Part shown: in pieces, positions 1,065 to 31,540 of the stretch
Numbering within the stretch: the stretch's first letter is position 1
How the letters are laid out: each line of letters starts with the position of its first letter
NCBI RefSeq assembly: GCF_940670685.1
Contig: NZ_OW711693.1
Span: 930,001-994,000, forward strand
Direction of reading: 5' to 3'
Length of the DNA: 64,000 nt
Source: Anaeropeptidivorans aminofermentans
GTDB taxonomy: Bacteria > Bacillota > Clostridia > Lachnospirales > UBA5962
Program-made: the position numbers and the translations under genes
The notes under the pieces: generated by a model
What the model was told of the DNA's origin: nothing
Database searches by the model: none
What the model saw: only the letters and a program-made list of their open reading frames with translations

Positions 1065-1162
1065 GGGGGTAGAAGGGTCGCTGGTGTGCCCTCCGGTCTT
1101 CAAAACCGGTAATAGCGGCTTATACCCGCTTAGGTGGGTTCGATTCCCACATACCTCCGCCA
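1065..1162 (+). tRNA. selC: tRNA-Sec (anticodon TCA)
   Basis: A 98-nt tRNA with encoded CCA. The anticodon stem CCGGT/ACCGG closes loop CTTCAAA with anticodon TCA, which reads UGA. It has a long variable arm (AGCGG/CCGCT) and a T arm GTGGG/CCCAC around TTCGATT. The acceptor stem GGGGGTA pairs with TACCTCC, including one G-U pair. The long variable arm and UCA anticodon identify tRNA-Sec, which is charged with Ser, converted to Sec, and delivered by SelB. It sits between selB and the selenoprotein operon that needs it. Confidence 0.96.
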
Positions 1163-1197
1163 ATTAGAGGTTAAAATTAAATATGTTTTGGATGAAA

Positions 1198-1320
1198 GCT
1201 ATGGGAGAGACTATTTCATATAGCGCCGAAGGTTTAAGCTTATAGTTTGCCGACTATAAGTGATAATCTCAGGCAAAAGAACCATAGCGGGACAACACTC
1301 TGAAGGGTTCCAACAGAGAA
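1198..1320 (+). ncRNA. Glycine riboswitch (single aptamer with short accessory hairpin)
   Basis: P1 is formed by GCTATGG (1198-1204) and CCATAGC (1282-1288). Inside it are GGGAGAGAC, GCGCCGAAGG and ATCTCAGGCAAAAGAACC, the conserved glycine-aptamer core. A second complete aptamer is absent. A short hairpin CTCTG/CAGAG (about 1299-1317) takes its place, as in singlet glycine riboswitches with a ghost partner. A terminator follows at once. Position before grdX-grdE-grdB implies that glycine controls expression of its own reductase, probably as an ON switch. Confidence 0.9.
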
Positions 1321-1321
1321 G

Positions 1322-1365
1322 GCATCGGGTATACTTTTATATGTTTGTATACTGGGATGCTTTTT
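1322..1365 (+). terminator. Riboswitch expression-platform terminator
   Basis: GCATC (1322-1326) and GTATAC (1329-1334) pair with GTATAC (1347-1352) and GATGC (1356-1360), with a small internal loop, followed by TTTTT. It lies directly downstream of the glycine aptamer and 320 bp before grdX. Confidence 0.8.
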
Positions 1366-1686
1366 ATTATGTTTTTTTACTTGAAGCATTAGCCAAAAAT
1401 TTACAAATATAAAATTTTTACTGCAAAAAACTGGTTTTTGTTAAAAAACAAAGAGGCAGAACTTCCTTGTTTTGAGGCGAAAAAATGCTGATGTTTGAGT
1501 TTAAAAGACATTTTAAGTTCAAATAATACATTAAATGGCATAAATCGTATATTTGAACAATTGTTAATAATAAAAAAATAGGATATACTTATAGTGGGCT
1601 TGTAGCACAATATTTATACGGCTATTAGAATTAGGGTTTTTACCGTATAACAAGGCCTTAAGTAATAATCTGGAAGCAGGGATATA
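1366..1686 (+). other. Long 5' leader between riboswitch terminator and grdX
   Basis: About 320 AT-rich bases with no supported gene. A minus-strand open frame here (1401-1610) has no ribosome binding site and a low-complexity product, and is not considered real. No further riboswitch or promoter was recognised. Confidence 0.4.
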
Positions 1687-2061
1687 GTGGACTTTATCTG
1701 TGTTACGAATAATGAAACACTCTACAACAAGTATAAAGATGATTTTGAAATAAGATTTTATAATATCCCTTTAAGGGATATTATGGTTAAGGTAAGAGAT
1801 ATGGTTCATGACGGCCATAAGATACTTACCCACCCCCTATCAGGAAGTGTAAAACCCGGCGAAACTACAATAAAAAGCATATTTGTCACCAAGAAAAAAA
1901 GCGGGCTTGACCACGAAAGTCTTATTTTAATTGAAACTAGCATAGAAGTCTGCGATAAGTTTGTTAAAAGACATTTTACTTATAAGAAAAGCAGAGAGGA
2001 TTTTGAGACTGTTGATTTATCGCTTGCAGAGTCGGCGCTTGTCAGCATGTCCTCTTTTTGA
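1687..2061 (+). CDS. grdX: GrdX family protein of the glycine reductase operon
   Basis: A 124-residue soluble protein starting at GTG 1687 behind GGAAGCAGGGA. No membrane segment or signal peptide is seen. It matches GrdX by length and by its place as the first gene of a glycine reductase operon. GrdX is conserved in such operons but its biochemical role is not established. It lies 85 bp before grdE and is expected to be under the upstream glycine riboswitch. The identification rests on context and overall resemblance, not on a catalytic motif. Confidence 0.8.
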   Translation: MDFICVTNNETLYNKYKDDFEIRFYNIPLRDIMVKVRDMVHDGHKILTHPLSGSVKPGETTIKSIFVTKKKSGLDHESLILIETSIEVCDKFVKRHFTYKKSREDFETVDLSLAESALVSMSSF

Positions 2062-2146
2062 GTGGGATACCGGCTTCGGCCTGTATTATAAAGGGGTTTG
2101 CAAATAGGGTTAACCCTCAAATTATTATATAAGGGAGGTAAGTGTT

Positions 2147-3427
2147 TTGAAATTAGAATTAGGGTATATTAATATCACCGATATCCTATTTTCCGACGTT
2201 TCAAAGGTAGAGAACGGCGTTCTTCATATTAATAAAGAAGAACTTGAAAAAATCGTTCTTGAGGACGAGCACATCGCTTCAGTTTCTTTCGAAATTGCAA
2301 AGCCGGGTGAAAGCGTTCGTATTACACCTGTTAAAGACGTTCTTGAACCAAGGGTAAAGGTTTCCGGTACTGGAAGTATTTTCCCAGGAACACTTAATAA
2401 GGTAGAGACAGTTGGAAATGGTAGGACACATGTTCTTAAAGGCTGTGCAGTTGTAACTGCCGGTAAAATTGTAGGCTTCCAGGAAGGTATTATCGATATG
2501 TCCGGTGTTGGAGCCGAATACACACCTTTCTCAAAGCTTAACAATCTTGTAATGGTGATTGCACCTGTGGAAGGCTTAAAACAGCATGAGTATGAGCATG
2601 CCGTAAGAATGGCCGGCCTTAAGATTACAGCTCACGTTGGCGAGCTTGGAAGAAACGTTACGCCAGACTCTGTTGACACATTTGAAACACCAACAGTTAC
2701 AGAAGGACTTAAGCTCTATCCAGAGCTTCCAAGAGTAGCTTATGTTCAGATGCTTCAGAGCCAGGGTCTTCTTCATGACACTTATGTTTACGGAGTAGAC
2801 GCTAAGAGAACAATTTCCACATTAATTTATCCTACAGAAATCATGGACGGTGCCATCATAAGCGGTAACTGTGTTTCTGCATGCGATAAGAACACAACAT
2901 ACCATCATTTAAATAACCCAGTTGTTCAAGAATTATTTGCTGCTCACGGCAAAACTCTTAACTTTGTTGGCGTTATAATCACAAACGAGAACGTTTACCT
3001 TATGGATAAAGAGCGTTCATCAGACTGGAGCGCAAAGCTTGCTGAGTTCTTAGGACTTGACGGCGTTGTTGTAAGCCAGGAAGGTTTTGGTAACCCCGAC
3101 ACAGACCTTATTATGAACTGCAAGAAGATTGAAGCTAAAGGCGTTAAGACTGTTATTATAACAGATGAGTATGCAGGCCGTGACGGAAAGAGCCAGTCTC
3201 TTGCCGATGCTGACGCAGCTGCCGATGCAGTTGTTACAGGCGGAAATGCAAACGAAGTTATCGAATTAGGCCCTATGGATAAAGTTATAGGTATGCTTGA
3301 TTACGTTGACAAAATTGCCGGCGGATTCGACGGAAGCCTTAAGGCTGACGGCAGCATCACTGTTGAGCTTCAGGCTATAACAGGCGCAACAAACGAACTC
3401 GGATTTAATAGATTAAGCGCTAGATAA
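2147..3427 (+). CDS. grdE: Glycine reductase protein B, proprotein subunit GrdE
   Basis: A 426-aa protein starting at TTG 2147, seven bases after GGGAGGT. GrdE is made as a proprotein and cleaved at an Asn-Cys bond to give two subunits of the glycine-binding selenoprotein B, with a carbonyl (pyruvoyl-type) group formed from the Cys. The sequence SGNCVSACDK carries this site, and Cys242 by this numbering agrees with the cleavage residue known for the family. It works with GrdB, encoded 18 bp downstream, to bind the amino group of glycine as a Schiff base. Codon use is that of a highly expressed gene. Confidence 0.95.
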   Translation: MKLELGYINITDILFSDVSKVENGVLHINKEELEKIVLEDEHIASVSFEIAKPGESVRITPVKDVLEPRVKVSGTGSIFPGTLNKVETVGNGRTHVLKGCAVVTAGKIVGFQEGIIDMSGVGAEYTPFSKLNNLVMVIAPVEGLKQHEYEHAVRMAGLKITAHVGELGRNVTPDSVDTFETPTVTEGLKLYPELPRVAYVQMLQSQGLLHDTYVYGVDAKRTISTLIYPTEIMDGAIISGNCVSACDKNTTYHHLNNPVVQELFAAHGKTLNFVGVIITNENVYLMDKERSSDWSAKLAEFLGLDGVVVSQEGFGNPDTDLIMNCKKIEAKGVKTVIITDEYAGRDGKSQSLADADAAADAVVTGGNANEVIELGPMDKVIGMLDYVDKIAGGFDGSLKADGSITVELQAITGATNELGFNRLSAR

Positions 3428-3445
3428 AGAAAGGAGGTAAGCACA

Positions 3446-4753
3446 TTGAGTAAAATAAAAGTAGTTCAATATATTAACCAGTTCTTCGCTCAGATAGGCG
3501 GAGAGGAAATGGCTCACATTAAACCAGAGCTTAGACAAGGTCCTGTTGGCCCAGGTCTTGCTTTCAATCAGGCTTTCGGCGATCAGGCTGAAGTAGCGGC
3601 AACAATCATCTGCGGTGACTCTTATTTCAACGAGAACCTTGAGACAGCTAAAAAAGAAGTTCTTGATATGGTAAAATCCCAGAATCCTGACATCTTCATA
3701 GCTGGACCAGCTTTCAATGCAGGCCGTTACGGCGTTGCTTGCGGTACAATCGCAGAAGCAGTTCAGAACGAGCTTAATATCCCTGTTTTAACAGGTATGT
3801 ATATAGAAAACCCAGGCGCAGATATGTTCAAGCAGTCTGTATACGTAGTTTCTACAAAAAACAGTGCTGCAGGCATGAGAGATGCAGTTAAGGTTATGGC
3901 TCCTCTTGCACTTAAACTTGCAAAAGGTGAAGCTATCGGTTCCTCAGCAGAGGAAGGATACCTTCCTAACGGAATCAGAAAGAACTTCTTTGAAAAAGAA
4001 ATCGGAGCTAAGAGAGCTGTTACTATGCTTGTTAAGAAGCTTGCAGGCAAACCTTTTACAACAGAGTATCCTATGCCTGATTTCGACAGAGTAGCACCAA
4101 ACCCAGCAGTTAAGGATATTACAAAGGCTACAATCGCTCTTGTAACTTCCGGCGGTATCGTTCCAAAAGGAAACCCAGACCATATCGAATCTTCAAGTGC
4201 TTCCAAGTACGGCGAATATGATATTGACGGCGTTATGGACCTTACAGCTGAAACTTATGAAACTGCTCACGGTGGTTATGACCCTGTTTATGCAAACGAA
4301 GACTCCGACAGAGTTCTTCCTGTTGACGTTTTAAGAGAGTTTGAAAAAGAAGGCAAAATCGGTAAATTATACAAATATTTCTACACTACAACTGGTAACG
4401 GTACTTCTGTTGCCAACTCCAAAGCTTTTGCTTCTGAATTCGGCAAGAAACTGAAAGAAGACGGAGTAGACGCCGTTATTCTTACTTCCACCTGAGGCAC
4501 CTGTACACGTTGCGGTGCAACGATGGTTAAAGAAGTTGAAAGAGCAGGCATTCCTGTTGTTCATATTTGTACAGTTGTTCCTATTTCCCTTACAGTTGGA
4601 GCGAACAGAATCGTTCCTGCTATAGCAATCCCTCATCCACTTGGCAACCCTGCCTTAACTATGGAAGAGGAAAAAGATATCAGAAGAAAAATGCTTACAA
4701 AAGCATTAAATGCATTAACCACAGAGGTTGATGACCAGACAGTATTTGAATAA
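3446..4753 (+). CDS. grdB: Glycine reductase protein B, selenoprotein subunit GrdB (Sec350)
   Basis: The gene starts at TTG 3446 after AAAGGAGGT and reads through TGA 4493-4495 to TAA 4753, giving 435 residues with selenocysteine at position 350. The Sec context, TST-Sec-GTCTRCGATMVKE, is the family signature. Sec350 attacks the C-alpha of glycine, which is bound to the GrdE carbonyl, and the carboxymethyl group then passes to GrdA. A hairpin begins two bases after the UGA. Any caller that stops at UGA will split this gene into a 349-aa piece and a 76-aa piece starting at 4523. Confidence 0.96.
4493..4518 (+). promoter_or_regulatory. Sec UGA codon of grdB with SECIS-like hairpin
   Basis: TGA 4493-4495 is followed by GCACC (4497-4501) pairing with GGTGC (4514-4518) across a 12-nt loop. 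Bacterial SECIS hairpins sit directly 3' of the UGA inside the coding region and are bound by SelB, and this one has the right distance. SelB recognition of the loop is inferred. Confidence 0.6.
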
Positions 4754-23325: not shown

Positions 23326-24486
23326 ATGTCTAAAGAAAAATACGAGAATTTATACATAAAGACCTTTGGAAACTTCGATATTAAATATTCAGGCAAAACA
23401 ATATTTATAAAAAAGAGAAATCAGGCAAAGCTTGAAGCCATACTTCAATATCTTGTGCTGAATAACGGAAAAGCCATCAATCCCGTAAAAATAATAGAGG
23501 ATATATGGCCCGAAAATGATTATACGGATTATAAAAAGGTGCTTCAAACATATGTATACAGAATTAAGAACTTTTTATCCGGTGAAAATTATTTCGGAAA
23601 AGACTTTTCCCCCAATCTTTCAATCACAAATGTAAAAGGCGATTACAGGCTGGATTTTTTAAAGGGAGTAATTCTTGATGAGAACATTTTTGAAGATATT
23701 ACTAAAGAAATAAAAGAAGAGGACGATTGTAATAAGCTTATCCTTATTGCAGATAAGTTAAGGGATATTTATGAAGGCGAATACATGGCAGGCTTCTACA
23801 ATGAATATCTTGTTTTAAGAAAAAGGAATTTTTACAGGCAGCTTTATTCTGCTTCCATAACGATTCTTTTAAATAAGCTTTATGACGGAAAAATATTTGA
23901 CAGTGAAATCATACGGCTATGTGAAGCTTTTTTTACAATAGATGATATCGATGAGGATGTTAATCTGATATTTCTGAAAACGCTTATAAGGTCCAATAAC
24001 AGAAGCCATGCGAAAAGACATTTTGATTATATCAGTGTTAAAATGAATGAGGTGCTGGGGATAACCCCTGGAAGAAGCATAACAGACCTTTTCAAGAAGG
24101 AAGAAAAAGAAGAAACAGACTATGCTTTCCAGAAAACAGGCAGTTTAGTTTTGAGCAGAGAAGATCTCGACAGAATTATAGAAGAAAGAATTGCCGAAAG
24201 GCTAAGGCCTGAAAATCCGATATATACCATGCTCAAAGTAGAAATTACAGGCAATATAGATTATATTCCCGAAGAAAGCATTGCGTCTTTATTCCAAGGT
24301 TCTTTAAGAAAAAACGATGTTTATGCCGTAATAGATGGCTTAAATTTTATTCTTATGCTTTACAGAGTTAATTATGACGCAGTGCCAATCGTTAAATTAA
24401 GGATTATTGAAAGAATAAGCAAGCTTTTTAAAGAAGAAGAAGTTAAATTAAATATTAACGTATATCCTACCACTACCATAGGATGA
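23326..24486 (+). CDS. SARP/BTAD-type transcriptional regulator
   Basis: 386 aa from ATG 23326 after TAGGGGG. Residues 1-105 form an OmpR/PhoB-type winged helix as in SARP regulators (LYIKTFGNFDIKYSGKTIFI, then ILQYLVLNNGKAINPVKIIE), and residues 110-265 are a bacterial transcriptional activator (BTAD) helical region. The C-terminal domain from about 285 is of unknown type and could be a GGDEF-like or sensory remnant. No ATPase domain is seen. It ends in its own terminator 375 bp before the SipW/TasA-like cluster and reads toward it, so it is a good candidate regulator of that cluster. Confidence 0.78.
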   Translation: MSKEKYENLYIKTFGNFDIKYSGKTIFIKKRNQAKLEAILQYLVLNNGKAINPVKIIEDIWPENDYTDYKKVLQTYVYRIKNFLSGENYFGKDFSPNLSITNVKGDYRLDFLKGVILDENIFEDITKEIKEEDDCNKLILIADKLRDIYEGEYMAGFYNEYLVLRKRNFYRQLYSASITILLNKLYDGKIFDSEIIRLCEAFFTIDDIDEDVNLIFLKTLIRSNNRSHAKRHFDYISVKMNEVLGITPGRSITDLFKKEEKEETDYAFQKTGSLVLSREDLDRIIEERIAERLRPENPIYTMLKVEITGNIDYIPEESIASLFQGSLRKNDVYAVIDGLNFILMLYRVNYDAVPIVKLRIIERISKLFKEEEVKLNINVYPTTTIG

Positions 24487-24513
24487 TTTTTAAATGTAAG
24501 GTTTTTGAGTGCG

Positions 24514-24543
24514 AAATGCAGTATATAGATACTGCATTTTTTT
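24514..24543 (+). terminator. Terminator after the BTAD regulator
   Basis: AAATGCAGTA (24514-24523) pairs with TACTGCATTT (24530-24539) and is followed by more T. The downstream open frame 24483-24695 overlaps it and is not considered a gene. The following 24544-24860 leader includes TG-A-TACTAT (24787-24795), an extended -10 candidate for the cluster. Confidence 0.8.
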
Positions 24544-24860
24544 GCGGAGGATTTTATGTAAATTCACAAAATAATTGCTTTAAAAGCGTAAAACCCTTTA
24601 CATTTATACAAAAAAATTTCAAGAAAATGGTATGGACTTCCTTATTTATTCTAATATTCGGATTTATAGATGTATTGTCTTTAGCTAACACATGATTGAA
24701 TGGCCATAAATTTTTATATGAAGCTGAAATAAGTGCGAAATGTTATTGAAAAGATTGAATCCTGTGTGAGAATTGAAAGCGGATTTTGATACTATAGGTG
24801 TATAGCAAACTCTTAAGCAATAAAATTCAATTGTTTTATCAAGCTGAAAAGAGGATATGT

Positions 24861-25430
24861 ATGAATGAAAATATGAAATCAGAAGAAAAAAACAGAAGAA
24901 AAAGCCCTGTGAAAATATTTCTTGATATTGTTACGGCTGTGTTTTTCGTTATATGCGTTGCTCTTCTTCTGAGCTCTATTTTATCAAAATATGACAAATC
25001 TATTTTTGGATTTAGAAGCTTTATCGTTCTAACAGGAAGCATGAGCCCAACTTTTGACGCAGGAAGCTTCATAATTGTAAAAGATAAGGCTCCCGAAAAT
25101 ATAGAGACAGGAGATATTATCACTTATGAAATAAGTGATAATGTTATTTTAACACACAGAGTAGTAGAAAAGAATAACACGAATGGATACTCATTTATTA
25201 CGAAAGGCGACGCCAATAATATAGAAGATAAAAATCCTGTTAAGGAAACACAGATAATCGGGGTTGCCGTATTGTGGATTAACGGTCTTGGCTCTCTTTT
25301 ATTAAGTCTTCAGCAGCCGCGGAATATGATTTTACTTATAAGCCTTATTCTTATTTTGTTTGGCTTGTGGGAAATTATACCTTGGTTTGTGAGGAAAAAA
25401 GATGAAGGAGATAAGACCACGAATACTTAG
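24861..25430 (+). CDS. sipW: SipW-type (ER-type) signal peptidase I
   Basis: 189 aa from ATG 24861, six bases after AGAGGA; an in-frame ATG at 24798 lacks a ribosome binding site. A first membrane segment (about 21-42), the catalytic Ser60 in LTGSMSPTF, His99 in LTHRVVE where bacterial-type enzymes have Lys, and a second membrane segment near 155-175 are the hallmarks of the ER/archaeal-like subclass. Bacillus SipW processes the TasA fibre protein. The five downstream genes, three of them with TasA-like signal peptides, are its probable substrates. The symbol denotes type, not proven orthology. Confidence 0.88.
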   Translation: MNENMKSEEKNRRKSPVKIFLDIVTAVFFVICVALLLSSILSKYDKSIFGFRSFIVLTGSMSPTFDAGSFIIVKDKAPENIETGDIITYEISDNVILTHRVVEKNNTNGYSFITKGDANNIEDKNPVKETQIIGVAVLWINGLGSLLLSLQQPRNMILLISLILILFGLWEIIPWFVRKKDEGDKTTNT

Positions 25431-25450
25431 TTTCATAGAGGTGGTGAGTT

Positions 25451-28400
25451 ATGAAAAAGAGAGGCTTTAAAAGGGGTATTGCATTTCTGCTGGCAGTTAT
25501 TATGGTGTTTTCTGCATCGGAATTTCCTGCAGGGGCATTTGCTTTGGCTGGCACAGTAATTGGTCAGGAAAATGCAGTACCAGATGAATCGCCTTCAGAA
25601 GAAGAATCGAGTGAAGAAGAAAACACCGAAGATATCGAAAATCCTGCAGAAGATAACAATCCTATAGAAGAAGAAAAGAATGAAGAGGGTGAAACGCCTA
25701 CAGAAAGTGAAAATCCGGCAGAGAGCGAAACTCCAGTGGAAAGTGAGACGCCTACAGAAGACGAAACGCCTGCAGAGGGCGAAACCCCTACGGAAGAGGA
25801 AATACCGATAGAAGGAGAAACACCTGCAGAAGGCGAAACGCCAACAGAGAGTGAAACACCTATAGAAGGCGAAATTCCTCCGGTTCCAGAAGCACCTGCA
25901 GAGGTTGAAAATCCATTTGCCGATATGGAATTTTCTATTGAATTAATGACAGACGCCCTCTATCTTTTAGCAGACCAATATGGCTATGACAGGGAAATCG
26001 TTGATTGGCTCCTGTATCACAGCTCGGAAGACTTCGGATATTTAGAGTATATATATGGCTTAATAATTAATGAACCGGAGACGATTCCTTATTTTCTTGA
26101 AGGCGTCAGCGAAAGAAAATATTATTATGAAAACCCCGAAGCATCTTCTCAAGACCCAGTCTACAAGGAAGAGGAATTGAAAGATGAAGAAAACCCTGAA
26201 ATAGCGGCCGCTGCAGAAGAGTTCAGCATGTATATAGAAAATATTGTTGCTGAACGAGAAGAGGAAGCCTCAGAGGAAAAAGAAGGAACAGAATTTTATT
26301 ATCCTGCGCTTTTCAGCACAAGGCTTGCACTTTTTAGCCTTTCTCCTCCCGAAACAAAAACAACTGAGATGGGAGACGGCCAATATATCAGAAAGACCAT
26401 AAAAAAGCTTGATACATTCAGGCATTATCAGGTTGACCTTGAGCTAAGGGCTAAGAAAGAGATAACAGAATTGCCTGGGAAAAGCCTGGACATAGCACTT
26501 ATTTTTGATACATCAGGAAGTATGGAAGGTACTAATTTAAATGGTGCGAAAGATGCTGTCAAAGCCTTTGTAAACGGCTTTCCAACGAAGGAAGAAAATG
26601 GGCAACAGATTTTTAAAGATGATGTTCGGATCAGTATAATTTCCTTCAATACAAATGCAGAAATTAAGAAAGAGCTTACGAACAATCCTCAGCAGGTTAT
26701 AAACGCCATTCAAAACTTAAGTGCTAACGGCGGTACGAATATTCAAGACGGTATTTTAAAAGCAAAAAACTCTTTAGGAGTAAATGACGGGGATAATCTT
26801 AACAATTCCGACAGGAAAAAAATAATGATACTTTTATCCGACGGAGAGCCCACCAATATTGCTACTGATGAGTGGACTTATAATGAGTATCAGTTTGATA
26901 GGAATAAACATGGTTTTTCTAAGCCTAGTCTTTATAATTCAACAAAACGGTGGACTTATACGAGCTATGCATTTACAAAGACTATTTTATGGATTTTTTC
27001 TACAGACTATTTCGAGATAAAATTTGGGGATAGAGCCTTTGAAAGGCAGGATATATATAGGTCAGATTGGTTTTCCCCAATAGCGCCTATAGGAAGCACC
27101 ACTACTGCTCTCAGACAGCAGGTAACCTTAGCCGAAGCACAATATGCCGCTAACCAAGGCATAGATTTATATACTGTAGCCTATACAGGCAATCAGAACC
27201 TTAAGGACCTTTTAGAAAAAATGACCTACGCCATGAACGGTTCCCCAAGCTTTAACAGTAATCTATCAGACAATGTGTTTAAAGGCGGTATTTCTCTTTC
27301 AGATATTCCTCATTATGAAGGAAAAAGAGCCTTTGCAGCCAATAATACAGGGGATCTGAAAGCAATATATGCTGAGCTTCAAGGCGAGATTTTTAAGAAT
27401 TTGATTTCCTTTACGGTAGAAGATACTTTGGAAGCAAACTTTGAGTTTGTAGAATTTGCGGAAAATACTGAAAATGACAATGAAGCTAACGGGGACGACA
27501 TAAGCGTTTCTGAGAACAAGATTACTTGGGAGACCAGCCTTGACAATCGGTTTGAAGGTGATTACGGAACAGGAAGATTATCCTTTATAGTAAAGGTTAT
27601 CGATGCGGATATTTGGGAAAAAGGTGCAGGGCTTGATGGAAGCGCTATTGAAAAACAGCCTTTAGCCACAAGTACCTCTGTTGAATATACGCCCACCAGC
27701 AGTTCAGAGCCTGCTACAGTATATCTTGAGGAACAGCCCATAATGCCCGTAGACCCTCTTGTTAACGGCACGGCGTCGGTAGTTCTTTCAAGCACGAAGG
27801 ACCCCGCAGAAGCAATTCTTTTGGGAGATGCTATAGACCTTATAGGGACGATTACAAACGGAAACGCTTCTTTTAGCTATCAATGGTATAACGGAGATGA
27901 CCCTTCACCAACGGAAGCAATACCAAACGCCAACGGAACGATTGCCTTCGGCTATGGAAATAATTTAACTATCGCTATCCCGAATACCGCAGTTGAAGGC
28001 CTGAAACCTGAAGGAAACAGTTCCTACACTCTTTTCATTAAAGATGAAAAGGCGGCAGCAGCCGGATATGAAAATGAGCGGGTTTTAGGTGTTAATATCC
28101 CCGTTGCAGTAGAGGTATTTGAACCTAAGCTTACAGTTAAGGTTCAAGGAGGAAGCTCCGATATCGACGGAAGGTTTGAAACAAGGGTTATAAAGACATT
28201 GGAAAATAATCATGCTTCCAGCTGGTATTTTATGGGCCTTGCTGAAAAAACATATACGAATAATGACAATATAGAAAGAGGAACATATTCCGCAGAAGCT
28301 TATGTACCATATGGATATAAGGCAACCGGCGGAGAAGCTGTTGAGATTATTCTTACAAAAGACGGAAACGACGACTGGACAGGATATGAAAAGGAAATAA

Positions 28401-28498
28401 CAATTGAAATTGAAAAAGATGACCCATTGTTTTTCTTTGACTGGGCATGGTTCGGCGGAAGCTTTATAAATGCTGTGTTGTTCAGATGGGAGGGGTAA
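25451..28498 (+). CDS. Large secreted von Willebrand factor A domain protein
   Basis: 1015 aa from ATG 25451 behind GAGGTGGTGAG. A basic N-terminus and hydrophobic stretch (residues 9-34) form a signal peptide. Residues about 40-150 are an acidic low-complexity region built of E-T-P/E-S repeats. The vWA domain starts near 345 with an intact MIDAS: D353-TSGSM, GGTNIQDGI and LLSDGEPTN. Beyond it are beta-rich repeats. No LPxTG, membrane helix or other anchor is visible at the C-terminus, which ends FGGSFINAVLFRWEG. It could be a fibre tip adhesin or assembly factor. It sits between sipW and the TasA-like genes in one operon. Confidence 0.82.
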   Translation: MKKRGFKRGIAFLLAVIMVFSASEFPAGAFALAGTVIGQENAVPDESPSEEESSEEENTEDIENPAEDNNPIEEEKNEEGETPTESENPAESETPVESETPTEDETPAEGETPTEEEIPIEGETPAEGETPTESETPIEGEIPPVPEAPAEVENPFADMEFSIELMTDALYLLADQYGYDREIVDWLLYHSSEDFGYLEYIYGLIINEPETIPYFLEGVSERKYYYENPEASSQDPVYKEEELKDEENPEIAAAAEEFSMYIENIVAEREEEASEEKEGTEFYYPALFSTRLALFSLSPPETKTTEMGDGQYIRKTIKKLDTFRHYQVDLELRAKKEITELPGKSLDIALIFDTSGSMEGTNLNGAKDAVKAFVNGFPTKEENGQQIFKDDVRISIISFNTNAEIKKELTNNPQQVINAIQNLSANGGTNIQDGILKAKNSLGVNDGDNLNNSDRKKIMILLSDGEPTNIATDEWTYNEYQFDRNKHGFSKPSLYNSTKRWTYTSYAFTKTILWIFSTDYFEIKFGDRAFERQDIYRSDWFSPIAPIGSTTTALRQQVTLAEAQYAANQGIDLYTVAYTGNQNLKDLLEKMTYAMNGSPSFNSNLSDNVFKGGISLSDIPHYEGKRAFAANNTGDLKAIYAELQGEIFKNLISFTVEDTLEANFEFVEFAENTENDNEANGDDISVSENKITWETSLDNRFEGDYGTGRLSFIVKVIDADIWEKGAGLDGSAIEKQPLATSTSVEYTPTSSSEPATVYLEEQPIMPVDPLVNGTASVVLSSTKDPAEAILLGDAIDLIGTITNGNASFSYQWYNGDDPSPTEAIPNANGTIAFGYGNNLTIAIPNTAVEGLKPEGNSSYTLFIKDEKAAAAGYENERVLGVNIPVAVEVFEPKLTVKVQGGSSDIDGRFETRVIKTLENNHASSWYFMGLAEKTYTNNDNIERGTYSAEAYVPYGYKATGGEAVEIILTKDGNDDWTGYEKEITIEIEKDDPLFFFDWAWFGGSFINAVLFRWEG

Positions 28499-28500
28499 AA

Positions 28501-29091
28501 ATGAGAAAGAAAATTGCTCTGTTGGCTATACAGGCGTTTCTTCTGTTTACCCTGTTGGTCGGAACAACGAATGCATGGTTTATAGGTGAAACGGCCCCAG
28601 AAAATGCTGCCGAAGCCAAGGCGGCAAAAATAAACGCCTCCCTTGATTTTAGCCTTAACAGTAAGAAGGGGATTCCCGGGGAAAAGATTGTCATATCGGA
28701 TAAAAATACAATCATGGATAATGGCAGCACAAGAAATTATATTTATAAAATAACATATACCTTAAGCGAAGGTTCTGAATTAATAGAACATATTTCCCTT
28801 TCAGAAGAAAATACGGATAATTTAGCAGTGCAGTATGATTCAACTGCCAAAACCCTTACTGTATACGGAGTAAACAAGGTTGAAACTAGACAGGATAAGA
28901 ACATTATCCTTCCTGCCCTTGCGGCTGAATTTAAGGTGCTTAGGAACCCTTCTCAGGCGGCAGGCTTCATGATTTCAGCGAATCTTCAATATTGCCAGAA
29001 TACAAAAGCGGCGGCAGAAGCAGTTTTAGGCATTAATGATGCTTTATTCCTTGAACTGAATAATGGGTTAGGCGGTGGAAGCAATGAGTAA
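28501..29091 (+). CDS. TasA/camelysin-like secreted protein 1
   Basis: 196 aa from ATG 28501, just after GGGAGGGG. The signal peptide ends LLVGTTNAWFIGE, and an A-W-F just after the hydrophobic core is characteristic of SipW-processed proteins. The rest is a beta-rich domain of the TasA/CalY class with IPGEKIVISDKN. It ends in a short gly/ser tail. The gene overlaps the next by eight bases (ATGAGTAA), indicating tight co-translation. It is likely a minor fibre subunit or anchor. No catalytic motif is seen. Confidence 0.72.
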   Translation: MRKKIALLAIQAFLLFTLLVGTTNAWFIGETAPENAAEAKAAKINASLDFSLNSKKGIPGEKIVISDKNTIMDNGSTRNYIYKITYTLSEGSELIEHISLSEENTDNLAVQYDSTAKTLTVYGVNKVETRQDKNIILPALAAEFKVLRNPSQAAGFMISANLQYCQNTKAAAEAVLGINDALFLELNNGLGGGSNE

Positions 29092-29716
29092 GAAAAGATT
29101 ATTGTTAGCTTCCTTATCCATAATCGCTATTTTAACATTAACTTTAGGCTTATCCTATGCATGGTTTACAGGAAGCTCTGAACCTGATGCCGTAAGCAGT
29201 GCGATGGCAACTGTAGATGTTTCAGTTCCTGAGGAAGCTGTTGTAACAGAGAATGAAGCTGCCTTTACAATTGCGAATAACAGCAATATCGGAACTTATT
29301 TACGCATAGGCTGGACGCCTATATATCAAGTGCGGGATGAAAACAATAACTGGGTTGATACTGCCAGAGACACTTCTCACATTACCGTTAGCTTTGCTGG
29401 TTTAGAACCAGATATCAGCGGTGCGAGCCTTAGCCCAGAACCCATAACAAGCTCAAACGGGTATTCAAAAAATATGCTGACTATGGCAGATACGAATAAT
29501 AATTATTTTGTTTTACCCGGCGGCATGAGTGTAAGCGGAAAAATAAATTTAACCGGTGTTTCTGTCAGTGAAGATGGAAATGAACGACTTGTAATTGTAT
29601 TTATCCCCGAAGCCCTTCAGGCCACAAAAAAGGCAGTTGAATCTGCAAGCGCTTACGGCTGGGACGCAGGCAAAGTTTTATCTCAGGACGGAAGCATAGC
29701 AGGAGGTGGTAATTAA
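29084..29716 (+). CDS. TasA/camelysin-like secreted protein 2
   Basis: 210 aa from ATG 29084. The signal peptide has LTLGLSYAWFTGSSEP, the SipW-type cleavage context. The mature part is beta-rich with IANNSNIGTYLRIGW, as in TasA-like domains. Its start overlaps the preceding stop and its own stop overlaps the next start by one base, so the three genes are translationally coupled. No cysteine-based or catalytic motif is seen. It is presumed to be a structural subunit of a surface fibre. Confidence 0.72.
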   Translation: MSKKRLLLASLSIIAILTLTLGLSYAWFTGSSEPDAVSSAMATVDVSVPEEAVVTENEAAFTIANNSNIGTYLRIGWTPIYQVRDENNNWVDTARDTSHITVSFAGLEPDISGASLSPEPITSSNGYSKNMLTMADTNNNYFVLPGGMSVSGKINLTGVSVSEDGNERLVIVFIPEALQATKKAVESASAYGWDAGKVLSQDGSIAGGGN

Positions 29717-30615
29717 TGATTAAAGTAAGAAAATTATCCTTATTCATTGCCACTCTAACTATTATAAGCTTAATACTTACAAGTATAAATATGAAGTCCG
29801 CTTATGCAGACCAAATCATTGTATCAGGCCAGTATTCCTTAGACCTTGCCGTTTTTGACGATGACATATTAGAGATTGGTGCAAATATGCTCCCCGGAGA
29901 GAAAATTGAAGGAAGAATGCGGGTTACAAATACAGATACAAGGCCATTTATTCTCTATATAAACGTCGCTTATATACCTGAACCTTTAGAAGCGGAAGGC
30001 CCTGAAGTGTTCTCTGAGCTTTTAGATAAGCTTAATATAACCGTATCTCAGGGCGGAAATGTTTTAACCAGCTTTCCGGCAAAAGGGGGAGGCCCGTATC
30101 AATTAGGCCGTCTTGACCCCAATGGGATATCGACTTTAAATGTTAAAGTTGAAATGCAGGAAGATGCAGATGACGCTTATCAAAGCAGATTGGCACATCT
30201 TATATGGACGTTTACGGCGGAAGGTATAGGAGGACCGAATCCAACCCCAAGCCCGACCCCTGCACCACCGGACGATGACGACGATGATTCTCCGCCATCA
30301 GAACCGGTGGATAGACCGAGAACCCCCGGAAGCGCAACCGGCGGGGGAACAGTGATTACAACCAGTCCCCCGGCTGCCCCGGAGCTTATAGAAATACCCG
30401 AGGAGCCGGTGCCCTTAGGAAATCCTCAAATACCAAGCATTAACGACACGGAAGAAATTATAGAAATACTTCCTGAAGAAATTCCTTTAGGAACCATAAA
30501 GGCTAATCCTAAAACGGGAGTGGAATCTAAAGCCTTCAGAAATGCCAATATAGCATTTTTTGCAGTATCGGCTGCAATATTTTTTATAACTAAAAAGGCA
30601 TCAATTAAAAATTAA
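29716..30615 (+). CDS. P-x-T-G cell-wall anchored protein of the SipW/TasA-like cluster
   Basis: 299 aa from ATG 29716 behind AGGAGGTGG. A signal peptide (residues 1-32) precedes a TasA-like domain with MLPGEKIEGRMRVTNTDTRP. A Pro/Asp-rich linker (about 175-265) follows. The C-terminus is a sorting signal: NPKTG at 264-268, then a hydrophobic span and a KKASIKN tail. A sortase would attach it to peptidoglycan, although no sortase gene is in the window. It is the likely wall anchor of the assembly. The next gene is separated by a weak hairpin and about 90 bp. Confidence 0.78.
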   Translation: MIKVRKLSLFIATLTIISLILTSINMKSAYADQIIVSGQYSLDLAVFDDDILEIGANMLPGEKIEGRMRVTNTDTRPFILYINVAYIPEPLEAEGPEVFSELLDKLNITVSQGGNVLTSFPAKGGGPYQLGRLDPNGISTLNVKVEMQEDADDAYQSRLAHLIWTFTAEGIGGPNPTPSPTPAPPDDDDDDSPPSEPVDRPRTPGSATGGGTVITTSPPAAPELIEIPEEPVPLGNPQIPSINDTEEIIEILPEEIPLGTIKANPKTGVESKAFRNANIAFFAVSAAIFFITKKASIKN

Positions 30616-30707
30616 CATAAGCCCTTTAAGATAATTTAGGGCATTTACAAAAGAGATTTTAAAAAACATATTGACTATAAATTATACTTATTTGGAGGTA
30701 ACTTAGT

Positions 30708-31313
30708 ATGAAAAAGACAAGAATAGCAGGTATGGTATTAGGTGTATTAGCTTTAGCAGCGGGCGCAATGGGAACTTATGCATGGTTTACGGCTTCCGAC
30801 AGCAATGTTGCAATCAATGTTAAAGCAGCAACGATTGTAGTAGAATCTGATGATTTAAAAGCAGATATTAATGAAGACGGCTATCTTCCGGGGGAATCTA
30901 TTGTTGCCAAAGGTGTTGTAGTTCGGAATACAGGCTCCAGAGAAGCCGTAATAAAAATTACGCCGAATGTTGAGGCAAAATCAGAAGGAAATGCCGCAGA
31001 CGAAGCTTTAAAAGCAGCCCTTGGAAATCCAGAGTTTACCTTTGCTGAAGGCTACAATCCTACGAACGTATTTCAAGCAGGTCAAGACCTTTACGTATTC
31101 CTTGATGCAAAAGCATCTTTCGGAGCGGAAGAGGGTAAGGAAGTTAATATTTCGGCAGGCATAAGCGAAGACCTTGGCGGACAGACAGGTCAAGAGGGCC
31201 AAAGCGGAGAAGTTACATTTAATTACACAGTTACAGCAGTACAGGGGACTAAAGCAGCTGTAGCAGCGGAGTTTCCGGCTGTAGGAAATGCATTTGATTC
31301 ACTTTATAAATAA
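30708..31313 (+). CDS. TasA/camelysin-like secreted protein 3, probable major subunit
   Basis: 201 aa from ATG 30708 behind TTGGAGGTAAC. The signal peptide ends AMGTYAWFTASDS, with the SipW-type YAWF motif. The mature domain has LPGESIVAKGVVVRNTGSRE, the TasA/CalY-like core. It lies after a 92-bp gap with a short hairpin (GCCCT/AGGGC) and is followed by a strong terminator, so it may be made from its own transcript at higher level, like the main fibre subunit in comparable operons. No metal or protease site is visible. Confidence 0.75.
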   Translation: MKKTRIAGMVLGVLALAAGAMGTYAWFTASDSNVAINVKAATIVVESDDLKADINEDGYLPGESIVAKGVVVRNTGSREAVIKITPNVEAKSEGNAADEALKAALGNPEFTFAEGYNPTNVFQAGQDLYVFLDAKASFGAEEGKEVNISAGISEDLGGQTGQEGQSGEVTFNYTVTAVQGTKAAVAAEFPAVGNAFDSLYK

Positions 31314-31374
31314 GTGTTACATAACAGATAAAAAAGCAGGTAAGATCCTTTGGGATTAAAACTGCTTTCATAAT

Positions 31375-31411
31375 AAAAAAGCCGGAGGGTGCTAAACCCA
31401 CCGGCTTTTTT
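31375..31411 (+). terminator. Terminator of the fibre cluster
   Basis: AAAAAAGCCGG (31375-31385) pairs with CCGGCTTTTTT (31401-31411) with an inner GGGT/ACCC extension. Confidence 0.9.
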
Positions 31412-31540
31412 ATGTAAGAAATCCACGGTAAAATTTCGGTTTGTTGCTATTTGCAATTAGCTTAAAGCTTTGCAAGAATTTATTGTATCTGCTGTTTTCA
31501 TACATTGCCTGATTTTTAGAGACGTTCTAACATTATAAAG

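Follow-up and report, generated by a model that had tools for sequence, protein, structure and literature searches.

We analysed a window of 64,000 nt from Anaeropeptidivorans aminofermentans (GCF_940670685.1, contig NZ_OW711693.1, positions 930,001 to 994,000, forward strand), and in particular the gene cluster at 23326-31411. Coordinates are window positions, and L-numbers (L007, L010 and so on) designate loci fetched from other genomes. The cluster encodes, on one strand and in this order, a BTAD-type regulator, the signal peptidase SipW, a large secreted vWA protein, the small proteins T1 and T2, an NPKTG protein (ANCH), and the small protein T3, followed by a terminator. A sequence-only reading had proposed a fibre or biofilm assembly system here. 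All the features that it named were present, namely the SipW-type peptidase, the vWA protein, three small proteins with AWF, the NPKTG protein, the strong terminator, and their location on one strand. The cluster is a real and conserved SipW/TasA-type operon that combines a wall-anchored protein of predicted TasA fold with a vWA protein lacking an anchor, and it is more specific than first read. Its features are as follows.

23326..24486, + strand: BTAD-type regulator with a winged helix (Trans_reg_C-like), BTAD, and a degenerate GGDEF-like C-terminal part.
24510..24546, + strand: terminator-like hairpin after the BTAD gene (-14.8 kcal/mol, z -3.27, T run).
24861..25430, + strand, start ATG 24861: SipW, an endoplasmic reticulum (ER)-type signal peptidase of 189 amino acids (aa) (TIGR02228; Ser60/His99).
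25451..28498, + strand: large secreted vWA protein, 1015 aa (Pfam VWA; repeats; hydropathy; motif scan).
26489..26857, + strand: vWA domain, Pfam-matched residues 347-469 (Pfam; residues of the metal ion-dependent adhesion site, MIDAS).
28501..29091, + strand: T1, small protein with signal peptide end TNAWF (sequence; L019 relative).
29084..29716, + strand: T2, small protein with signal peptide end SYAWF (TasA-like through its family).
29716..30615, + strand: ANCH, with a predicted TasA-fold ectodomain, a proline-rich spacer, and an NPKTG sorting signal (AF2 model; family alignment A1).
30505..30519, + strand: NPKTG sortase motif (sequence; class B-type sortases elsewhere in the genome).
30708..31313, + strand: T3, SipW-dependent-type protein, tentatively TasA/camelysin-like (TIGR04088; PF12389; profile comparison).
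31373..31413, + strand: intrinsic terminator hairpin (-25.7 kcal/mol, z -5.75).

From SipW onward, the genes are spaced by 20 bp and 2 bp, overlap by 8 bases and then by 1 base, and are spaced by 92 bp before T3. The BTAD gene probably forms a separate transcript, because it has its own terminator-like hairpin (24510-24546) and its end lies 374 bp before the SipW start. A 70-aa open reading frame (ORF) at 24483 was dropped as a gene because it has no family. An identical cluster composition was found in a near-identical metagenome-assembled genome (L007, UBA11329). The vWA gene of L007 is broken at an ambiguous NN (L007:6696-6697), which is probably an assembly matter.

SipW matched TIGR02228 (ER-type signal peptidase) with 100.5 bits against a cut-off of 51.85, and no other gene of its genome matches this model. 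The residues were checked, and Ser60 and His99 are as first stated. With the Bacillus SipW equivalog NF046067, the window SipW scored 86.3 of 190, under the cut-off. In T1, T2, and T3 alike, the signal peptide ends in AWF (TNAWF, SYAWF, and TYAWF); the (T/Y)xAWF pattern described earlier holds except that T2 has S at its first position. T3 narrowly passed the cut-off of the SipW-dependent signal peptide model TIGR04088 (19.6 of 19); T1 and T2 gave no TIGR04088 match despite AWF in their sequences. Cleavage of AWF after A would place Phe at P2' of the SipW site, as reported for TasA in the available text of PMC10269814. The signal peptides of ANCH (SAYA-DQ) and the vWA protein are of the ordinary type, as judged by eye.

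In ANCH, the NPKTG motif is followed by a hydrophobic stretch (19-mer from residue 279) and a basic tail. Residues 31-179 were modelled with AlphaFold2 (AF2), template-free, from a four-row alignment of the window protein, the identical L007 protein, and, from L010, an ANCH-like protein and a BsaA-family protein (TIGR04090, 79.1 of 60). The model had a mean predicted local distance difference test (pLDDT) score of 71 and a predicted TM-score (pTM) of 0.67, with weak ends. A Foldseek search against the PDB returned TasA chains as the top three (E 2e-4 to 1e-3), with E 2e-4 and TM-scores of 0.51 and 0.41 for 5of2. Among PDB structures, VIA-align also placed TasA 5of2 best (Z 11.0, root-mean-square deviation 2.8, 133 residues); 5of1 scored Z 10.6, the next unrelated chain 8.9, and the TasA fibre structure 8aur 7.3. 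The ANCH ectodomain is thus predicted to have the TasA fold. Profile comparisons were made with the signal peptides cut off and with T3 left out of the T3-type family; under these settings, the ANCH family matched the T3-type family with 87.0%. The NPKTG protein had earlier been taken for the wall anchor. Its sorting signal is present, but the predicted fold makes it more than an anchor, and for this reason we regard ANCH as a candidate fibre-type subunit.

Conservation was surveyed by a TIGR02228 search of 245 genomes of the order. A match at E 0.001 was found in 197 genomes and a match over the cut-off in 54, at 79 places; the matches under the cut-off are presumably ordinary signal peptidases. 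Around the 78 over-cut-off places other than that of the window, 70 loci were fetched, and a simple gene caller found the SipW gene in 68 of them. A protein counted as a TasA-like neighbour when the two TasA-like profiles identified it on the same strand as SipW and no more than six genes away. Of these 68 loci, 29 have at least one such neighbour and 21 at least two (two to five TasA-like genes); three of the 29 (L016, L030, and L069) rest on doubtful matches. A TasA-like protein with a sortase-type C-terminus, defined by a loose pattern, occurs in 20/68 loci. The TasA-like profiles matched 82 of 1201 proteins in the set of SipW loci: 78 lie no more than six genes from SipW, and the other 4 are among the 392 proteins farther off. 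As a control, they matched none of 249 proteins in 16 loci fetched for BTAD.

The gene order is also shared in part. L019 repeats that of the window, with SipW, a 754-aa protein, and T1-like and T2-like genes. In L051, a large protein with CnaB domains precedes a short TasA-like, a T2-like, and an ANCH-like gene, and SipW lies two genes after ANCH. L109 has a large protein (vWA, LPYTG) before the same three types, with one gene in between; its nearest over-cut-off SipW is approximately 49 kb off. L010 (Clostridium sp.) reads TasA-like, SipW, BsaA-family, ANCH-like, vWA. L034, L035, and L040 each combine BTAD, SipW, TasA-like genes, and a large protein; the large protein has a vWA domain by Pfam in L034 and by motif only in L035, and in L040 SpaA is over the cut-off and PA14 under it. 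The head of the large protein therefore varies (vWA, CnaB, SpaA), and the TasA-like part is constant. As a check independent of SipW, the 245 genomes were searched with the ANCH family; ectodomain-covering matches were kept, and short fragments and matches to the sorting region only were dropped. The ectodomain was found at 34 places at least, nine of them profile seeds. Among the non-seed matches listed, 24 of 25 lie in genomes with an over-cut-off SipW (54/245 genomes have one), 12 within 10 kb of SipW and 17 within 25 kb. The lack of a conserved neighbourhood in related genomes had been set beforehand as a refuting outcome; such a neighbourhood was found in other families of the order, and the proposal was not refuted by this test.

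Two sortases were found in the A. aminofermentans genome with PF04203, at 578 and 1528 kb, both outside the cluster and nearest to class B. The first, of 279 aa, is over the class B cut-off (200.1 of 153.75); the second, which adjoins a VPKTG protein, is just under it (143.9). The PF04203 search found no class C sortase in the genome, and T1-T3 and the vWA protein carry no sorting signal. A sortase-assembled pilus was rejected on these two grounds.

In eight other loci (L034, L038, L048, L049, L053, L056, L058, and L059), the SipW domain is fused to a sortase domain in a single protein of 405-434 aa. With Pfam, the sortase domain is over the cut-off in all eight and Peptidase_S26 in seven (L056, 22.4 of 22.9). 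L034, the only fusion run against NCBIfam, scored 153.3 of 153.75 for class B sortase and 89.1 of 51.85 for ER-type signal peptidase. The SMxP, THR, and YGHNM motifs are present in all eight; a pattern search detected the sortase Cys motif in seven, and inspection by eye in L034. Every fusion locus has an anchored TasA-like gene, seven in the piece first fetched and that of L034 just beyond it (found in L105). Seven of these anchored proteins have NPxTG, comparable to NPKTG of the window, and that of L034 ends in QTGD (in L105). The fusion of SipW to a sortase beside anchored TasA-like genes ties SipW maturation to sortase anchoring.

With slightly better than an even chance, in our estimate, the operon encodes a TasA-type fibre whose TasA-fold base subunit is attached to the wall by a class B sortase, whose cap is the vWA protein, and whose expression is under the BTAD regulator. 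The fusions bear directly on one alternative, a plain SipW/TasA (BsaA-like) matrix operon in which the T proteins form free fibres without a sortase, with ANCH and the vWA protein separate and merely co-expressed. Such an operon would agree with the report that BsaA polymerises without SrtB, BsaB, or BsaC (available text of PMC7395162), with the over-cut-off BsaA-family protein (79.1 of 60) in the SipW-ANCH-vWA locus L010, and with the lack of a sortase in the window cluster. It leaves aside the predicted TasA fold of ANCH and the two processes tied together in the eight fusion loci, and we consider it unlikely.

The T2 profile gathered 36 proteins, mostly from SipW loci; T2 is 35% identical to an L019 protein and 27% to an L082 protein. 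In profile comparison with the T3-type family, the T2 family reached 97.4% over 150 columns and the short-T family 99.0%; two parts of the vWA protein, used as controls, gave 0.1 and 0.4%. The same comparisons with signal peptides kept and T3 in its own family gave higher values (98.8, 95.7, 86.8, and 99.6%). Of the 11 members of the T3-type family alignment, nine match PF12389 (camelysin family), to which TasA belongs. By profile, T2 is assigned to a TasA-like family, through its own family only. The AF2 model of T2 was poor (pLDDT 54) and too weak to inform either way: its structure search peaked at Z 5.0, with TasA absent from the matches listed. T3 by itself matched PF12389 with E 0.037 and scored 15.3 of 60 for the BsaA family TIGR04090, under the curated cut-off; searched with its signal peptide cut off, it had L007 as its only relative. 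The relatives of T1 in the locus set are L007 and one 426-aa L019 protein encoded at the corresponding position among the genes. A PDB sequence search with three family alignments found no TasA, and its few matches (E 0.03-0.9) look like chance. Among viral contigs searched with family alignment A3, 12 stretches fit the pattern and none was confirmed.

The folds of T1-T3 are unproven, which leaves room for an interpretation without any fibre: the AWF proteins and ANCH may be single surface adhesins or binding proteins, matured by SipW. According to the available text of PMC13082335, CalY is a surface adhesin early and a fibre later. The presence of several TasA-like genes (two to five) in each of 21/68 loci fits heteropolymer subunits better, and we judge the interpretation without a fibre to be very unlikely.

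The vWA protein consists of a signal peptide, E/P/T-rich repeats (25684-25874), the vWA domain, and a hydrophobic C-terminal tail. Its vWA domain matched Pfam VWA with 63.1 bits (E 5e-17), and the MIDAS is intact, as first described (D353-T-S-G-S, GGTN, LLSDGE). Motif and hydropathy scans found neither xPxTG nor a second membrane stretch. At the same gene position in L019 (L019:3004-5265), the C-terminal part of the 754-aa protein matches the window vWA protein (E 5e-16), and Pfam finds no vWA domain in it. Seven other large proteins (L020, L025, L034, L035, L047, L062, and L063) share a short motif near the C-terminus, of the form (N/T/K)D-x-x-(V/K/R)-N, which the window vWA protein lacks. 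A scan of 1480 proteins and 469,609 residues found the motif in these seven and at no other site, a count that is no test, because the pattern was written from them. The tail of the window protein (28418-28495) holds AWFGGS, which resembles the mature start of T2 (AWFTGS) and may be chance.

These features also bear on the place of the vWA protein, which may be an assembly or shedding factor at the membrane side instead of a tip adhesin, a role that could be combined with a wall-linked TasA-type fibre. The absence of xPxTG and of a second membrane stretch is compatible with this role, as is the L019 relative, which keeps the C-terminal part without a vWA domain, so that the conserved part would be a scaffold and not the vWA head. 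Since proteins with CnaB or SpaA domains occupy the same position elsewhere, as expected for exchangeable adhesive heads, we regard an assembly or shedding role as somewhat unlikely.

The BTAD-type protein scored 23.2 bits with Pfam Trans_reg_C and 15.2 (of 22.1) with BTAD, both under the cut-off. Its relatives in L034, L035, and L040 are over the Pfam BTAD cut-off, and the window protein is accordingly assigned to the BTAD family by homology and not by score. The C-terminal part (about residues 256-386, window 24094-24483) is degenerate GGDEF-like, and alignment by eye showed that the GGDEF residues are absent. With Pfam, GGDEF scored 27.4 of 23.8 in L034 and 18.2 in L035, under the cut-off, and was not found in L040 or the window. 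Positions 256-398 of the family profile match L098 and L099; each of these has two Pfam GGDEF stretches, and the match is located C-terminal to the better of the two.

The BTAD family was found at 49 places in the 245 genomes at E 1e-50 or better, with 4 near SipW, and these four (the window and three others) are the seeds of that profile search. BTAD as a cluster-specific regulator was dropped. In three of the 16 other BTAD loci fetched (L089, L093, and L103), genes of type II/IV-secretion-type pili lie beside the BTAD gene, with T2SSE in all three. It is a fair guess that the BTAD protein is a regulator of surface structures, and it may plausibly regulate this operon.

For the wall-linked, vWA-capped TasA-type fibre, the following mechanism is proposed. 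SipW would remove the AWF-type signal peptides of T1-T3 and expose an aromatic N-terminus as a donor strand, and each subunit would be linked to the next through strand complementation, as TasA subunits are. ANCH, presumably without an aromatic donor-type N-terminus because its signal peptide is ordinary, would accept the last strand and stop growth; a class B sortase would then link it to peptidoglycan through NPKTG. The vWA protein, which is secreted and carries no anchor, may sit at the distal end as an adhesin held by its C-terminal tail. The BTAD regulator would switch the operon, with the degenerate GGDEF-like domain as a possible ligand sensor.

Several observations weigh against this reading. 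The window cluster contains no sortase, and the models of sorting signals scored below the cut-off for ANCH (NF033073, 24.8 of 48; NF033846, 15.7 of 23.5). The ANCH fold prediction is weakened by an alignment of only four rows, one of them of the BsaA family, and by moderate Foldseek TM-scores (0.51, 0.41). Used alone, without its family, ANCH gave 10.8% against the T3-type family; the ANCH family gave 60.7% against the T2 family and 0.7% against the short-T family. T2 alone gave 0.2% against the T3-type family, and the mature part of T3 alone gave 50.4% over 153 columns against the putative family built without it. This value, the narrow TIGR04088 pass, the PF12389 E of 0.037, and L007 as the sole relative make the membership of T3 in the TasA-like family tentative. 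T1 could not be linked to the TasA-like superfamily by profile comparison: it gave 63.5% against the T3 family with the signal peptide kept, 0.1% without it, 0.3% against ANCH, and 0.2% against the short-T family. Within the family of the window organism itself, the vWA gene is present in one of seven genomes, its own. That adhesin tails mimic N-terminal donor strands is retained as an idea and no more: the tails scored no better than unrelated C-termini against a profile from 32 mature N-termini (L010 5.0 bits, L035 4.3, L062 4.0, window 2.4). The best match to that profile came from an ORF of 81 aa at the end of a contig, and this ORF itself resembles the start of a TasA-like protein. Finally, the available texts describe the B. 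cereus TasA/CalY/CapP system as sortase-independent (PMC13082335) and the C. perfringens BsaA polymer as forming without SrtB, BsaB, or BsaC (PMC7395162).

Of the earlier claim that the three small proteins share the TasA fold, T2 is linked through its family and T3 tentatively (50.4% alone); T1 stays unlinked, and the T2 model does not help. The wider claim of a SipW/TasA-type fibre system is supported in part, by SipW, the predicted TasA fold of ANCH, and the conserved neighbourhood; for T2 and T3 the TasA fold is a candidate assignment.

A more daring proposal, possible but short of probable, is a hybrid pilus. A TasA-type donor-strand fibre would end in a TasA-fold terminator fixed to the wall by a class B sortase, and an exchangeable tip adhesin, lacking a sorting signal, would dock through its C-terminal tail. 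The SipW-sortase fusions of relatives would be a membrane platform coupling subunit maturation to wall linkage, and the BTAD regulator, whose GGDEF domain is dead, would respond to a nucleotide signal.

If the wall-linked fibre is real, a wall-linked TasA-fold subunit and a SipW-sortase polypeptide would account for the retention of such fibres at the cell surface and would connect two kinds of Gram-positive appendage that are normally considered separately. The best-studied TasA-type fibres, the B. cereus fibres and the C. perfringens BsaA polymer, have been described as sortase-independent. Similar loci are present in several families of the order, where the large surface proteins differ, and the arrangement may therefore be a common way to display adhesins. 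The action of a class B sortase on a TasA-fold base subunit becomes a directly testable question.

Elsewhere in the window, positions 1065-4533 hold a selenocysteine tRNA, a glycine riboswitch, and a selenocysteine insertion sequence (SECIS) element, and the adjoining genes look glycine-reductase-type by eye.

A literature search, mainly outside subscription papers and without bioRxiv preprints, found no description of this gene set or of a SipW-sortase fusion. Sortase-assembled SpaA-type pili of Gram-positive bacteria have a vWA-type adhesin at the tip and a wall link at the base. The window cluster is alike in its vWA protein as the proposed tip adhesin and in a proposed wall link at the base; it differs in that no class C sortase was found and T1-T3 and the vWA protein carry no sorting signals.

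The tapA-sipW-tasA operon of B. subtilis and the SipW/TasA/CalY/CapP system of B. cereus, as far as the available texts describe them, share with the window SipW, the TasA fold (ANCH model), SipW-type signal peptides, and several subunits. In TasA fibres, an N-terminal donor strand connects one subunit to the next, and the first strand may come from TapA (available text of PMC9674648); an NCBIfam scan of the window cluster gave no TapA-type match. The window differs from the Bacillus systems in having a predicted TasA-fold protein with a sortase signal and a vWA protein, in contrast to the reported sortase independence in B. cereus. The sipW-bsaABCRSD operon of C. perfringens, which forms the BsaA pellicle polymer, is alike in that SipW stands beside secreted beta-rich subunits (available text of PMC7395162). 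Its regulator is a two-component pair, whereas that of the window is BTAD-type; srtB is unneeded there, and T3 is under the cut-off for the BsaA family (15.3 of 60). L010 bridges the two arrangements, with a TIGR04090 BsaA-family protein in one locus with SipW, ANCH-like, and vWA genes.

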